Shown here piece by piece: positions 5,812 to 14,421 of a stretch of DNA of 45,352 bases (the stretch's first letter is position 1; the number at the start of each line of letters is the position of its first letter). Below the pieces are notes generated by a model. The model saw only the letters and a list, made by a program, of their open reading frames with translations. It had not been told where the DNA came from and did no database searches. Source of the stretch: Planctomycetota bacterium (GTDB lineage Bacteria > Planctomycetota > Planctomycetia > JALXBF01); the NCBI GenBank assembly GCA_026991575.1, contig JALXBF010000139.1:1-45352 (forward strand), given 5' to 3'. The translations under genes and the position numbers were made by a program.

Positions 5812-6180
5812 CCTCCCATCGCGGCTGCACATAATGGTGCTTCTTGCGAGAATTCAGTACGTGGGATCGTCGCGTGTGGGCCCCGTCCGATTCCTTTTCG
5901 CTGGCCCAACCGGGCCGTGCATCGCCTGGCAAGGACTGAACCGGGGACGATCGGTACGCACGGCGTGTTTGGATGCACTCGATCCGGCTTACTTACATCC
6001 GGCAGCGATGGAACCGAGCCGCCGAGGCTTCACCGCAGCAGTGCGCCGAAGTGCTGAACCAGCGGCGCGGTGGTCAACCGGCTAGGCATCCCTCCCGCTC
6101 GGGAGCGTTTCAGCATTTGGAGCACATCGGGTGGGGCGGGGCGGTGGTTCGCCGTCGCGCTGTGCCCCCGCTCGACCTGA

Positions 6181-6406
6181 TGTCCGGTGCGGTGGTGGTG
6201 GTAGGCGAAGCGAGAGCCGGACGGATCGGGCAGCCTACTTTGAACGGACGGGCGGCTTACTTCAAACGGGCCGATGGGGTAACCTACAGCGACCGGGCAG
6301 CCTGCTTCAAACGGTTAGGGGGGGCTTCATGTCCCCCCGCCGGAGGTTGATTGCATAGCGCCCGCGGTATCCTCGGAGTTTTCTTCTGCCCCGCTGCCGC
6401 GGGCGC
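6181..6406 (+). repeat. Dispersed non-coding repeat, copy 2
   Basis: Positions 6181-6233 match 944-996 at roughly 79 percent by hand alignment. A tandem array follows (6227-6315), then a hairpin of six G-C pairs (6319-6324 with 6333-6338, loop CTTCATGT). Positions 6346-6386 match 1271-1310, and a 10-bp-arm inverted repeat lies at 6358-6406. The module order equals copy 1 minus the part between its two hairpins. Confidence 0.6.
6227..6315 (+). repeat. Imperfect 22-bp tandem repeat array (4 units)
   Basis: Units lie at 6227-6248, 6249-6270, 6271-6293 and 6294-6315. The first, second and fourth follow CGGGC.GCCT.CTT..AACGG and the third has diverged. The array ends directly at the poly-G hairpin, as in copy 1. 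Confidence 0.55.
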
Positions 6407-6799
6407 TAACCGCGGCGGCAGGGCAGCGCGCGGGAACCGTGCCGTGGACGAAACCTCCCGCGGCACGGCCGACAGACACGTTGTTTCGATCAGCCGCGCG
6501 TTTCAAGCAAGCCGGCGGGTGCCGGGCGCAAAGCTCGCCCACCTGCCGGTCGAAGCAGGCTACCGGTTTCATCAACCAGCTTTCCTGGGACCACCTCATC
6601 GTCGTGGCGAGTGTGTCCAGCACCGTATTACGAGCACGGGCGGCATGCTCCCCCGGCCGAGCGCACAAACAACGCTGAATCGGACCTACCGGACGCACGT
6701 GTGGCTCGGTGACGGAACCACTTCACGGCGAGCCGCCGGTTGTCGTTGATCCCTCCGGCTCAGGCCTCAGCGTCGAGCAACGACTCGGAGCGGACCAAA

Positions 6800-6849: not shown

Positions 6850-7320
6850 TCACGCTTTGTCTTGACCGCGCGTGTACCACGATACGAAGCGGTCTCTGTG
6901 CCAGCAGCGGAGCTCATAGCCAGACAATGCCCTGATCAGGGGATGGTCGGTCGTAACGAGCAGCGATGCTCCGCTAGCCAGGTACGACCGGACGAGATAC
7001 CAGTCGTCAGGCTTTATCTTGGCGTACAGTTCCTCCGGCATCGGATGCAGCTCGTGGTCACGAAGGAGATGGCACTCATCGCAGTTCTCGATGAATTGCG
7101 TCCGAAACATCTTCACAATTGCACGTCGCGGATCCCCCGATGGCGCGTCCTTCGCCATGCGGTAGAACTTCCTTAGAAACGGGCTACCTGAGACGGCCAC
7201 TAATTGGTCGCATCTCTCGACGAGGGTTGCCAGTACGCGCACGGATTCCCTTTGTGCCCCCTCCCCGTGTTCTCCCCAAAGATCGGCCCACAGCCATTCG
7301 TCGAGGACGAAGCGCGCCAT
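6850..7320 (-). CDS. PIN-like domain protein paired with an AAA ATPase
   Basis: 156 residues from the ATG at 7320, five bases past the end of the ATPase gene, so the two are almost certainly translated together. The N-terminus MARFVLDEWLWADL fits the first PIN strand with its Asp. The C-terminal part KPDDWYLVRSYLASGASLLV runs into TTDHPLIRAL, as in the PIN pattern of acidic residue, helix, strand and TxD. Asp5, the acidic group ENCDE in the middle, and the two later Asp positions are candidate metal ligands. PIN domains are usually RNases (VapC-like), but I see no classical VapC N-terminus, so a divergent PIN-like nuclease is inferred. No antitoxin-like gene is adjacent; the partner is the ATPase. 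Alternative: an uncharacterised accessory subunit of an ATPase-driven defence complex. Confidence 0.55.
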   Translation of the reverse strand: MARFVLDEWLWADLWGEHGEGAQRESVRVLATLVERCDQLVAVSGSPFLRKFYRMAKDAPSGDPRRAIVKMFRTQFIENCDECHLLRDHELHPMPEELYAKIKPDDWYLVRSYLASGASLLVTTDHPLIRALSGYELRCWHRDRFVSWYTRGQDKA

Positions 7321-7324
7321 CGAA

Positions 7325-8518
7325 TCACCCGATGCCCAGCAGTTTCTTAAGGTCCTCCAGTTCCGCCTCGACAAAGGTCTCGAGCCCTCCAGAAATCTGG
7401 CCCTCCGGGGTTACATCCTGTCTTCGGACCACGGTGGCCCGTCCAGTCTTCTGGCACAGATAGCACCGTATCTCTTCCGGTGCCAGCTTTCCCTCCGCTA
7501 CAAGCGTCAGGACCGCGGTCACAAACAGCTCGCTGTGCGTTGTTACGACGACTTGCTTAGCCTCCGCCCGAACGATCTCACAGAGTACCCTGACGAAACT
7601 GCGTAATGCTGTGGGATGCAGGTGAACTTCCGGCTCTTCGATCAGAACCGTCCTCACTGTGGGTCGTAGAGTCTTTGCCAGGAGGTAGACGAGCTGGTTG
7701 ACGCCGAAGCCGTCATTGACGAGGAATCCCGGGGTACGTGATTCCTTGTCCGTCGTCTGAAAGAACACGCTGGCGGTACCCGGTGGCGTAAATGTACGAA
7801 AATCGCGACCGACGGCTTCCTCGAGATATGCGGAGATTCGTGCGTGAAGATGCCGGTCGTTGATGATCAGAGAAGCGACTTCGTCCTCCGTGACAGGCAG
7901 CGGAGAGACAGGGACGCTTGTGTAGCTTGGCTTGAAGAAGCCACGGATGGCTGGCGCAATGTCGATAGCTTTGATCTGTTCCGTGAGTGCATTGATGGCT
8001 ACGGATAGGTCGCGAGCACGCTGCTGTGTCTCCGGCGTGGGTTGGGCGGGCAAGACGGAAGAACAGGCGATACCGTTCCAGTTGATCTTGTACTCGGCTT
8101 CGCCCTCCACGTACGACAGGGAGAAGGTCTTGTTTAACGCGTACGGAACGGGGACCTCGCCATGAAGGATGAGTTCTCCCCAGCGTTGCTCAACTCGGGC
8201 GGCCTTCTGAGAGAAGGACAGTCGGTACGAAGAAGGACGGTTTCCTTGCCCGTCGGAGGAAAGTGTGATGGAGATCTCACGGTCCGGTTCGTGGTTGAAG
8301 ACGCAGGCATCGAACCCTCCGAGATCCATAAACCCGAGGTGAAGGTACGCATCGGCAGGCCGGTTCGGGTTGACCAAGAAGTTACGCAGCACCAGTGGCG
8401 CATACAGAAGGCTGGATTTCCCGGACGCTGTTGGTCCGTAGAGGAGCACGAGAGGTGCCAGTTCCAACTCGGCCTTTTCGATGGACCGGAAGTTTTCTAT
8501 GGTGACGGTGCGGATCAT
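7325..8518 (-). CDS. AAA family ATPase (SMC/ABC-type, AAA_15/AAA_21-like)
   Basis: 397 residues from ATG 8518, preceded by GGGAGGTGCACAG; the longer open frame to 8800 has no such site. Domains in order are: MIRTVTIENFRSIEKAELEL start strand, Walker A GPTASGKSS near residue 30, a central helical insert, an ABC-signature-like NDGFGVNQL, Walker B VLIEEPEVHLHP, and the H-loop TTHSELF. This is the arrangement of stand-alone ATPases such as those in OLD, Septu, PARIS and RloA-type systems. There is no TOPRIM domain at the C-terminus, so nuclease activity must come from elsewhere. The next gene, a PIN-like protein, starts five bases later. The pair stands alone between repeat-bearing gene-free stretches. 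Confidence 0.8.
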   Translation of the reverse strand: MIRTVTIENFRSIEKAELELAPLVLLYGPTASGKSSLLYAPLVLRNFLVNPNRPADAYLHLGFMDLGGFDACVFNHEPDREISITLSSDGQGNRPSSYRLSFSQKAARVEQRWGELILHGEVPVPYALNKTFSLSYVEGEAEYKINWNGIACSSVLPAQPTPETQQRARDLSVAINALTEQIKAIDIAPAIRGFFKPSYTSVPVSPLPVTEDEVASLIINDRHLHARISAYLEEAVGRDFRTFTPPGTASVFFQTTDKESRTPGFLVNDGFGVNQLVYLLAKTLRPTVRTVLIEEPEVHLHPTALRSFVRVLCEIVRAEAKQVVVTTHSELFVTAVLTLVAEGKLAPEEIRCYLCQKTGRATVVRRQDVTPEGQISGGLETFVEAELEDLKKLLGIG

Positions 8519-9170
8519 TCTGTGCACCTCCCTGGGAAGAATCGCCAACTCATCGGCGGTCGTGTGGGCGGCAGTGGCGACGCCCCCGAACGGACTGCTG
8601 GCCCCGCGGATGGACCGCGAAGGGCAACTAATGGTTCGTGGGGAGGAGACGCCCGAATCCGCAGCCCTTGTGCGTCGTCCGGCGCGTTGGTGCCCTACAG
8701 CCAGTGTACCTGGGCCCGCCGTGGTTGAATCGCCAGCTTCGCCGCAGGTCATAGCGGGTGGACACCACGGTCGTGACAGCGTGCGATCGCGCCAGCGCAA
8801 CTCTTGTGCCGACAGAAGCCCGGTGCACCGCGACTCGTTCTAAGGGCACCCGTTCCTCTGACTAAATCCGCCGTAGCTGGCGGTGTGACTCAACTCTTGC
8901 ACGCCGTTCGGACGCCCGATCGAGACGATCGGAGGTACTTCGTCCGCGCAGCAGCTCGAACGCATCCTCCCGACATCCAGAGCGTCTCGATTGCCGTTTC
9001 GCCCGCACGCGCAGCGGGCTAGCTACCGGTCAGACGCGGGCAAGGACTGAATCGGACGCCGTTGTCGACTTAGCGGATGCGATTCTGAGAAGGGGCGGCA
9101 CGACGGTGTCGAACCACTGAGGAGGACCGACTACAGCGGTCGGAACGTGTCGCGGACGGCAACGGGGATG

Positions 9171-9224
9171 AACCCGCCAGCTTCCTTCAATGGGCGGGAG
9201 GGAGGCGTACAGCCCCCCCCTCCC
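9171..9224 (+). repeat. Dispersed non-coding repeat, copy 3 (partial)
   Basis: Positions 9171-9206 match 1214-1249 with about 7 mismatches in 36, including AATGGGCGG. The match runs into a hairpin in which GGGAGGG (9196-9202) pairs with the C-rich strand ending CCCTCCC (to 9224). The 22-bp array is absent in this copy. Confidence 0.5.
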
Positions 9225-11819: not shown

Positions 11820-12987
11820 TTCGATCGACCGCTTACGTGCCGATGGCATTGTCATTGACGACAGCCCGGGTGCCGTGCTCGTGGTCGAGGATCAGCCCTT
11901 GGACCGCGACCTGATCGTGCGAGTGCTCCAGCGGGGGGGGCATCGGGTGCGGGCAGCGGCGTCGGCTGCCGAGGGGCTTGAGTTGCTCGAGCGCGAGCGG
12001 CCCGAATTGATCCTGTGCGATATTTCCATGCCGGGCATGGATGGGCTGGAGTTCTGCCGCACCGTCAAGGCGCGCCTGGGTGATGAGTTTGTGCCGTTTC
12101 TGTTTGTCACCGCGCTGACCCGCCCCGAGCACCTGCTGGCCGGCTTCGAGGCTGGGGCGGAGGACTACATCGAGAAGCCGTTCGAGTTCGAGGAACTGCT
12201 CGTGCGCGTGCGGACCATGCTGCGCATTCGCCGGCTTCATGCGGCGCTGCGCGAGCATGCGCGCCGCCTGCAGGAGGCTTATCACGAGACCGAAGAGCTG
12301 GTGCATGTTGTCTCGCACGATCTGCGCGCGCCGCTGGTGAGCATTGTCGCCGTCACCAACGAGCTGCTTGAGCGGTTCGCGTCCGGCCAGCCCGATCTGG
12401 CGGAGGTCCGCCGGCTGCTGGAAGAGCTGCGTGCGGCAGCGGCCCATTCGGCCGAACTGGCCAACAAGATCGTCGAGTATGGCCGCCTGGGCCGAAACAC
12501 CTCCGGTTGGATCCGATTCGATGTTGGCCTGGCCTTCGAGCAAGCACGCCGCAACGTGCAGGCCCAGCTGCGAGCGGCCGGGGCCGAGCTGAAAGTGCCT
12601 GACCGCTGGCCGGAGCTGTTCGGCGACCCGATTGGCATCTGCCAGGTGTTTCAGAACCTGCTGGACAACAGCTGCAAGTTCGCTGACCCGCACCGGCCTC
12701 TGCTCATCGAGGCTGGCTGGCAGCCGGTGCCCGGTGTCCCAAGACGCTACCGCTTCTGGGTGCGCGACACGGGACAAGGTATCGACCCGGCGCGACAACG
12801 TGATGTGTTCCGGCTCTTTGCTCGTGCCCACAGCGGGCAGCCCGGCTACGGCGTCGGCCTGGCGGCCGCCCAGCGCATCGTCCGCCGCCACGGCGGCCAG
12901 ATCGGGCTGGAGTCTGAGCCCGGGCAGGGTACCACCGTCTGGTTCATCCTGCCAGAAGGAACGGAGGTCCAGACCGCACAGCGTTGA
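11809..12987 (+). CDS. Receiver-histidine kinase hybrid
   Basis: 392 residues, starting inside the end of the preceding kinase gene. The receiver comes first (about residues 20-140) with VVEDQ, the phospho-acceptor Asp71 (ILCDISMPGMDG), the T/S switch in FVTAL and Lys123 (IEKPF). A linker coiled coil follows, then HisKA with VHVVSHDLRAPLVSIV (His170) and HATPase with FQNLLDNSCKF, RDTGQGI and GYGVGLA. The order receiver-kinase suggests it accepts phosphate from another kinase, most likely the one encoded just upstream, and controls its own kinase part. It has no membrane segment. The NtrC-type gene begins nine bases later, so this protein probably sits in the middle of a relay (inference). Confidence 0.9.
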   Translation: MSSDSIDRLRADGIVIDDSPGAVLVVEDQPLDRDLIVRVLQRGGHRVRAAASAAEGLELLERERPELILCDISMPGMDGLEFCRTVKARLGDEFVPFLFVTALTRPEHLLAGFEAGAEDYIEKPFEFEELLVRVRTMLRIRRLHAALREHARRLQEAYHETEELVHVVSHDLRAPLVSIVAVTNELLERFASGQPDLAEVRRLLEELRAAAAHSAELANKIVEYGRLGRNTSGWIRFDVGLAFEQARRNVQAQLRAAGAELKVPDRWPELFGDPIGICQVFQNLLDNSCKFADPHRPLLIEAGWQPVPGVPRRYRFWVRDTGQGIDPARQRDVFRLFARAHSGQPGYGVGLAAAQRIVRRHGGQIGLESEPGQGTTVWFILPEGTEVQTAQR

Positions 12988-12996
12988 GGTTAGCTG

Positions 12997-14421
12997 ATGT
13001 CGTTGACCGAACGCACTGCCGATCAAACGCAGCGCGTGACGCCTGCAGCCTTTCGACGTGTGCTCGTTGTGGACGACGATCCACTGCATCGGGAGCTGTC
13101 ACGCCGCGCTCTGGAGCGCGAGGGGCTGGCGGTGGAAGTGGCCGAATCGGCCGAGGAAGCTCTGGCCCGGCTCCGCGAGCAGCATTTCGATGCGGTCGTT
13201 TCCGACTACAAGTTGCCCGGCATGACTGGCCTCGAGTTGCTGCAGCGGCTGGGGCGGCCCCCGGCGGCCCCCCCACTGGTCCTCGTAACGGCGTTGGGCG
13301 ACCAGCGGGTGGCGGCCGAAGCGCTGAAGGCCGGGGCACAGGAATATGTGGTCAAGGACGTGCCGGCGCTGGGCTACCTGGAGATGCTGCCGACGCTGAT
13401 CCAGGAGGCGATCCGCCGTTCGGAACTGCTGCGCGAGAACGCAAGGCTCAGGGAACAGCTCCAACAGAGCAGCCCGGACGGTCTGCTTGTGGGACGCTCC
13501 GCAGCGATCCGTCGTGTGCTGGCCTTGATCGAAGAAGTAGCCCCGGTCGACTCCACCGTACTGATTACCGGCGAGAGTGGCACGGGCAAGGAGCTGGTGG
13601 CCAGGGCAATACATCGGCGAAGCCCGCGTGCGTCCGGCCCGTTCGTCGTGGCCAACTGTGCTGCGCTGCCGGAAAGTCTACTGGAAAGTGAACTGTTCGG
13701 GCACGAGGCCGGCGCGTTCACCGGGGCGCGCGCGGCACGCAAGGGCCGTTTCGAACGCGCCAACGGCGGAACACTGTTCCTCGACGAACTCGGGGACATT
13801 CCGCCCAAAGCCCAGGTTGACCTGCTGCGCGTGCTCCAGGAGCGCGAATTCGAGCGGGTCGGCGGCACGCAGACGATCCGTGTTGACGTCCGGATCATCG
13901 CAGCAACTAACCGCGACCTCCAGCAACTGGTGCGCGAAGGCAAGTTCCGCGAAGACCTGTACTACCGGGTCAACGTCATCCCGATCCACCTGCCCCCCCT
14001 GCGCGAACGACCTGAAGACATCGCACCGCTGGCTTACCACTTCCTGCGCCGGTTTGCTCGCCGGTTCAACAAGCCGATCGAAGGGTTCACGGCGCGGGCG
14101 ATGGAAGTGCTCACCGCTTACGCCTGGCCCGGCAACGTGCGGGAGCTAGAGAACTTGATCGAACGCGTCGTCGTGCTCTGCCGGGCTGATCGGATCGACG
14201 TCGAGGATCTGCCGTCACACCTGTGGCGCAAGAGCAAAACCATGCCCCTGGAAACGGTCGACAACCTGGAACTCGTCGAGAAGCTAACGATCGAACGCGT
14301 GGTGCGTACCAGTAGCACCGTGGCCGAAGCAGCCCGACGACTCGGCATCTCGCGCACCACGCTCTACGCTAAGATGCGCAAGTACGGCCTGGACACTACC
14401 CTCCTGAAGCACTCCTCCTGA
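12997..14421 (+). CDS. NtrC-family sigma54-dependent response regulator
   Basis: 474 residues, with GAGG upstream of the ATG. The receiver has VVDDDP, Asp70 (VVSDYKLPGMTG) and Lys120. The AAA+ domain has Walker A TGESGTGKE (near 191-199), the sigma54-contacting loop GAFTGA (239-244), Walker B TLFLDELGD and the sensor stretch VRIIAATNRDL. The C-terminal Fis-type helix-turn-helix is AEAARRLGISRTTLYAKMRKYGL. All elements needed to activate sigma54 RNA polymerase are present. It is the output of the three-gene cassette. The last 26 bases overlap tail to tail with the aminotransferase gene on the other strand. Target promoters are not visible in the window. Confidence 0.95.
   Translation: MSLTERTADQTQRVTPAAFRRVLVVDDDPLHRELSRRALEREGLAVEVAESAEEALARLREQHFDAVVSDYKLPGMTGLELLQRLGRPPAAPPLVLVTALGDQRVAAEALKAGAQEYVVKDVPALGYLEMLPTLIQEAIRRSELLRENARLREQLQQSSPDGLLVGRSAAIRRVLALIEEVAPVDSTVLITGESGTGKELVARAIHRRSPRASGPFVVANCAALPESLLESELFGHEAGAFTGARAARKGRFERANGGTLFLDELGDIPPKAQVDLLRVLQEREFERVGGTQTIRVDVRIIAATNRDLQQLVREGKFREDLYYRVNVIPIHLPPLRERPEDIAPLAYHFLRRFARRFNKPIEGFTARAMEVLTAYAWPGNVRELENLIERVVVLCRADRIDVEDLPSHLWRKSKTMPLETVDNLELVEKLTIERVVRTSSTVAEAARRLGISRTTLYAKMRKYGLDTTLLKHSS

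Follow-up and report, generated by a model that had tools for sequence, protein, structure and literature searches.

OLD-type ABC ATPases paired with HNH, PD-(D/E)XK or PIN nucleases that replace the TOPRIM domain have been reported from 594 taxa (PMC12839542; gkag035, 2026). In that report, which cites an earlier ABC-ATPase classification (gkaa726), the OLD-ABC plus PIN dyads are described within BREX and BREX-related neighbourhoods, with coupling also in other R-M-like systems, and are proposed to act as phage-sensing suicidal effector pairs. A two-gene layout is likewise found in PARIS, where the gene for an AAA_15-type ATPase (AriA) is followed by a separate nuclease gene (AriB), and in HEC-03, a candidate system of PADLOC, which joins an ATPase (HEC-03B) to a small partner bearing a PIN-like motif (HEC-03A). 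Essential PIN domains are also present in the defence genes DS-3 and DS-5.

The stretch of DNA analysed here, 45,352 nucleotides of a Planctomycetota contig (the window), carries a comparable pair on its minus strand, with both reading frames intact and arranged as an operon. The first gene (7325-8518) encodes an ABC/OLD-type (AAA_15/AAA_21) ATPase of 397 aa, as assigned by Pfam, alignment and an AlphaFold model, and the second (6850-7320) encodes a PIN-fold, VapC-like predicted endoribonuclease of 156 aa, as assigned by AlphaFold, Foldseek and VIA. The ATPase frame is open upstream as far as a TTG at 8800; the ATG at 8518 was taken as the start, since it is common to all homologues and has a good ribosome-binding site, the Shine-Dalgarno-like GGGAGGTG at 8525-8532 (minus strand). 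The two genes are separated by 4 bases (TGA-TTCG-ATG), and not by the five given in an earlier sequence-only reading of this DNA. The pair is present in a single copy in the 4.96-Mb assembly. Its G+C content, 57.8%, is below the 64.3% of the window; at third codon positions the pair has 0.67-0.69, where most neighbours have 0.73-0.82 and DUF1559 likewise has 0.69. The window gene content includes DUF1559 proteins and a sulfatase, which points to Planctomycetota.

Like the OLD-ABC plus PIN dyads of PMC12839542, the window pair combines an OLD-type ABC ATPase with an adjoining PIN endoribonuclease, predicted in this case, and contains no TOPRIM. Features of such dyads found here are Walker A, the signature, an EEPE-HLHP Walker B/D-loop, HSE and an adjacent PIN-fold protein. 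The setting may differ: the described dyads sit in BREX neighbourhoods, and no BREX gene was recognised on general inspection of the window ORFs and of the related loci, several of which are on short contigs. ATPase-PIN dyads as a general kind have already been described, and the HEC-03 layout in PADLOC is similar, so the suggestion of the sequence-only reading that the pair is a candidate for an undescribed system is not supported as a concept.

Detailed inspection of the ATPase confirmed the four nucleotide-binding motifs previously claimed for it, all on the minus strand. The Walker A motif GPTASGKSS (residues 28-36, 8411-8437) was read in the sequence, with G28 and G33-K34-S35 invariant among nine homologues. 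The alignment showed an ABC signature-like motif NDGFGVNQ (residues 268-275, 7694-7717) with G272 and Q275 invariant, a Walker B/D-loop VLIEEPEVHLHP (residues 291-302, 7613-7648) with EPE-HLHP invariant, and an H-loop TTHSE (residues 326-330, 7529-7543) with HSE invariant. The C-terminal tail VTPEGQISGGLETFVEAELEDLKKLL (residues 370-395, 7334-7411) is DUF3696-like, its GGL..F being invariant in the nine homologues; the DUF3696 match of the L005 ATPase homologue had an E value of 0.0017, under the curated cut-off. Pfam searches assigned the protein to AAA_15 (3.6e-22) and AAA_21 (6.2e-19) and gave no TOPRIM match, in agreement with the earlier description, and the protein stops at residue 397 after the ABC head.

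The AlphaFold model of the ATPase (pLDDT 91.0) resembles SMC and Rad50 heads (the best matches by Z), PtuA (Z 19.6) and the Thermus OLD protein (Foldseek E 1.6e-12). Among PDB sequence-profile relatives the Thermus OLD nuclease was best, followed by PtuA and GajA, with AriA lower. In PADLOC the best match was NsnB (5e-33), followed by AriA, HEC-03B and many more, with 140 ATPase models matching. An NsnB identity was set aside as uninformative, since the NsnB model matches in 14 of 14 control genomes, and NsnA, the partner of NsnB, was not found. The protein is a member of the OLD-like group of ABC ATPases and not of AAA+, and the suspected kinship to the OLD, PARIS and Septu ATPases holds in the Pfam, PADLOC, PDB-profile and structural matches. 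Related ATPase heads occur in Septu PtuA-PtuB, retron PtuAB, OLD and Gabija GajA; the effectors there are HNH (PtuB) or fused TOPRIM (OLD, GajA), whereas the window pair has a separate PIN protein.

The PIN fold of the 156-aa partner is well supported. The AlphaFold model, made with a nine-sequence alignment, had a mean pLDDT of 91.6, and its best solved match was Pyrococcus VapC4 (Foldseek 4.6e-4; VIA Z 11.1, 134 residues, 3.7 A), with further matches to other VapC proteins, FitB, HARP/PRORP (RNase P) and SMG6. Independently of the model, a profile of the nine partners retrieved Pfam PIN, PIN_3 and PIN_9 proteins from Chloroflexi, Nitrospirae and archaeal genomes, so that the PIN-like nature proposed in the sequence-only reading was recovered by structure prediction, Foldseek and profile alike. 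Those retrieved proteins are weak matches (E 7e-5 to 1e-3) to ordinary PIN proteins, and were rejected as members of the pair because they are standalone. When the PIN profile was run against PDB sequences, no significant match appeared, so the fold assignment rests on the AlphaFold model and the profile-to-PIN matches. The viral structure library contained no match to the model at E 0.001, the best being giant-virus PIN-like proteins at ~2e-3. The window partner had no match in Pfam, PADLOC, NCBIfam or PHROGs, so that its PIN lineage is not recognised by these four collections.

The pair was found at 12 loci including the window, always with the ATPase gene first, the PIN gene adjacent and both on the same strand, the two genes overlapping by up to 11 bases or being separated by up to 11; the order and adjacency agree with the earlier view of a two-gene unit. 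These loci fall in six phylum-level groups: Planctomycetota, Nitrospirae, Ignavibacteriae, Acidobacteria, Chloroflexi (including Dehalococcoidia) and Methanoperedens archaea. The closest relatives belong to other phyla, with 55% in Nitrospirae, 52% in Ignavibacteriae, 48% in Acidobacteria and 40% in Chloroflexi. The ATPase orthologues in four other phyla are 40-56% identical over the full length with the partner gene adjoining, indicating that the pairing is more than chance. Methanoperedens, Dehalococcoidia and a further genome from the phylum of the window hold more distant pairs, and a third branch comprises three loci in that phylum. By profile comparison, the PIN proteins of all three branches form one family (98%, 96% and 91% probability). 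All homologues recovered in the survey were paired, so that one refuting outcome named in the sequence-only reading, homologues mostly apart, was not seen. Single-sequence PIN searches of the species genomes gave no confirmed match, so that the ATPase alignment was required, and plasmid searches with three PIN members gave nothing.

Pairwise distances of the ATPase and PIN proteins are correlated across the 12 loci (Mantel r 0.93, p 5e-5), showing that the two genes co-diverge; for the five closest pairs alone the correlation was not significant (r 0.61, p 0.15). The distribution is patchy. Within 392 genomes of the phylum, the PIN profile found four matches aside from the window locus, all adjoining such an ATPase, and the pair was absent from all 58 relatives. 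This absence, together with a G+C content lower than that of the neighbours, suits a recent acquisition in the window genome, and the overall distribution points to a conserved, rare and horizontally moving unit.

Comparison of the gene neighbourhoods (loci are given by L number) showed a clear defence context at two of the 12 loci. In L120 the pair lies inside a type I R-M cluster with hsdR-like and HNH-like genes, read from sequence, and an hsdS-type gene whose Pfam Methylase_S match falls slightly short of the curated cut-off. In L012, from Nitrospirae, the pair has a PLD/SNF2 helicase gene on one side and, on the other, an IS200-like transposase together with an Eco57I-type methylase/R-M gene. 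L015 has a phage terminase gene after the pair, and the neighbours in L013, L014, L016, L017, L018, L122 and L123 are housekeeping genes. No defence gene was found near the window pair, and none of the inspected loci revealed a third gene conserved beside it. The defence-island enrichment proposed earlier was thus only partly borne out, being clear for two loci and absent for most of the others; a mostly housekeeping context, the other neighbourhood outcome that the sequence-only reading gave as refuting, was not seen outright, though many homologues do sit among housekeeping genes. Near the pair in L012/L124, beside the R-M and helicase genes, a VapC-like PIN gene (12463-12879, plus strand) and a RelE-like gene (13535-13906, minus strand) were noted by eye.

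Two further claims concerned the surroundings of the pair within the window. The Rpn gene reported further to the left does exist, as an Rpn-like (PD-(D/E)XK) ORF at 3-503 on the minus strand, named by eye, which runs off the left window edge and lies ~6.3 kb from the pair. On the other hand, the pairing of repeat copies at 6181-6406 and 9171-9224, thought to bound the module, was not recovered; within the window, that stretch could be matched only as 6181-6240 with 944-1003 (77%). The flanking repeat is a dispersed genome-wide element with 37 matches, and repeats were therefore rejected as module borders. At 6170-6420 of the window the repeat is intergenic, ~250 nt long, and contains an internal G-run/C-run hairpin.

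As a working model, it seems fairly probable that the two translationally coupled genes form a toxin module gated by its ATPase and acting in defence. The SMC/Rad50-like head of an OLD-group ABC ATPase should dimerise on ATP, and the second gene would encode a metal-dependent PIN-fold endoribonuclease, possibly not active in every member. In a resting cell the PIN protein could be held in a complex with the ATPase dimer and restrained by it. A trigger, for which phage infection or one of its products is the likeliest source, would shift the nucleotide or oligomeric state of the ATPase and free the PIN protein. In the manner of VapC toxins, the freed protein could then cut RNA of the cell, tRNA or rRNA being the most likely targets, leading to growth arrest ahead of phage multiplication. 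The phage-factor trigger and the tRNA or rRNA target are suggested by analogy with PARIS.

This defence model is supported by the two predicted folds, the constant pairing, co-divergence and patchy spread of the genes, by the precedents of PARIS AriA/AriB, DS-3, DS-5 and the OLD-ABC plus PIN dyads, and by the R-M context in L120 and L012. It is weakened by the position of the window pair and most homologous loci outside defence islands, by the active-site substitutions described below, by the lack of significant co-divergence within the five closest pairs, and by the identical housekeeping site of the pair in both Methanoperedens genomes (L016, 6001-7819, and L017, 6001-7805), between mqnA-like and purN-like genes. 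The two Methanoperedens ATPases are 78% identical and their PIN proteins 48%, so the PIN protein is diverging much faster. PARIS shares the layout; AriA is a remote relative of the window ATPase, and AriB is a TOPRIM/DUF4435 protein that cuts tRNA, whereas the window partner has a PIN fold. A PARIS or TOPRIM identity was rejected on the partner, which gave no DUF4435, TOPRIM or AriB match.

The same Methanoperedens site would suit a chromosomal maintenance function. A toxin-antitoxin-like module for stress or for plasmid or chromosome maintenance, in which the ATPase is an antitoxin-like regulator and the PIN protein a VapC-like, growth-arresting toxin triggered by stress (for example, a drop in ATP) and not by phage in particular, is a rather unlikely alternative, one that fits the structural proximity of the PIN protein to VapC4 and other VapC toxins and the position of the pair, alone among housekeeping genes, at most loci. 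The PIN fold is indeed common to both, VapC proteins being the best structural matches, at a sequence identity to the window partner of about 8-16%. However, VapBC has a small VapB antitoxin and the window PIN protein has a 397-aa ATPase instead; no small VapB-like, DNA-binding antitoxin gene was found, and the upstream gene is the ATPase at 12 of 12 loci. In addition, ATPases of the same group (AriA, PtuA and GajA) regulate characterised defence systems, and two loci lie within R-M clusters, bearing in mind that the boundary between toxin-antitoxin and defence functions is not sharp.

A housekeeping role in RNA maturation or DNA repair, with a Rad50/SMC-like clamp on DNA or RNA and a structure-specific PIN nuclease, appears improbable. 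The ATPase head is closest to SMC and Rad50 by Z, the PIN model also matches the PRORP/HARP RNase P proteins and SMG6, and several genomes have housekeeping neighbours, but a processing or repair pair would hardly be expected to be so patchy (none in 58 relatives, few in 392 phylum genomes), to have its closest relatives in other phyla, or to lack the long coiled coil, of which none was present in the ATPase AlphaFold model.

Alignment and model placed three acidic residues of the PIN protein in the putative active site, all encoded on the minus strand: Asp7 at the end of strand 1 (7300-7302), Asp106 in the motif DDWYL, where the helix that precedes the last core strand begins (7003-7005), and Asp125 in the motif LVTTD (6946-6948). 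Asp106 and Asp125 are invariant. In L014 (5393-5842) and L015 (1586-2068) Asp7 is replaced by Asn with an acidic neighbour (INEW and INDW, respectively). In the five closest members, Ser-x-Phe/Trp takes the place of the Glu with which VapC proteins begin the helix that follows strand 2, an equivalence drawn from secondary-structure order and not from superposed coordinates. Judged by these residues, full catalytic competence is not assured, given the missing fourth PIN acid in the five closest members and the Asn in L014 and L015. The same substitutions could mean that some members of the family have a PIN protein without catalytic activity, which would bind nucleic acid and serve the ATPase as sensor or adaptor while a different effector is encoded elsewhere; this is very improbable in view of the invariant Asp106 and Asp125, the Glu/Asp at position 8 that could replace Asp7, and the lack of a third conserved gene beside the pair.

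Returning to the ATPase-gated defence module, it is conceivable, though on balance doubtful, that the pair represents a defence or toxin system of its own across bacteria and archaea, in which a TOPRIM-less OLD-type ATPase controls PIN RNases of a distinct lineage, without the usual active-site Glu and, in some members, with Asn for the first Asp; lying mostly outside defence islands, it would have been missed by guilt-by-association searches. Standard surveys would miss the pair, since most copies are outside such islands. The pair adds a rare, clearly bounded, cross-domain lineage to the ATPase-plus-RNase conflict systems and, if active, would show that the gating by OLD-type ATPases known for TOPRIM nucleases in PARIS can extend to VapC-like RNases.

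The HEC-03 layout is comparable to that of the window pair, and the window ATPase is homologous over its full length to HEC-03-like ATPases. Its match to HEC-03B (E 3.5e-25) is one of those to 140 PADLOC ATPase models, NsnB being better. Membership in HEC-03 was rejected on the partner, which fails the HEC-03A model: HEC-03A gave no match to it at E 1, nor to five homologues at E 0.1, and hhalign between the window PIN family and HEC-03A gave a 0.9% probability of relation. HEC-03-like plasmid loci contain the ATPase gene followed by a gene for a HEC-03A protein of ~170 aa with a PIN-like DTN motif. A PDB profile search with HEC-03A-like proteins returned designed proteins and one weak chance match only, so the assignment of HEC-03A as PIN rests on its motif.

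Three HEC-03-like plasmid loci differ further from the window pair in carrying an RNA ligase gene. The order is DUF3696 ATPase, HEC-03A and RNA ligase in L006 (3053-5681, Aeromonas), L011 (3056-5674, Azotobacter) and L010 (3125-5687, Rhodococcus), and the presence of a cutter and a ligase suggests a cut-and-reseal or self-repair logic. In phage and plasmid searches with the window ATPase, all matches were distant ATPases of the DUF3696 or AAA type, and their partners were different. In a P2 prophage region (L007, 243-2913, P2-EC5 record AM157364), a related AAA ATPase (ORF555) is followed by ORF333, which is weakly PD-(D/E)XK-like (E 0.08), possibly forming another ATPase-plus-nuclease pair. 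On a Methylocella plasmid (L008, 3986-6591), an ATPase and a 308-aa partner of no known family have a type I R-M set on one side and a SIR2 gene on the other.
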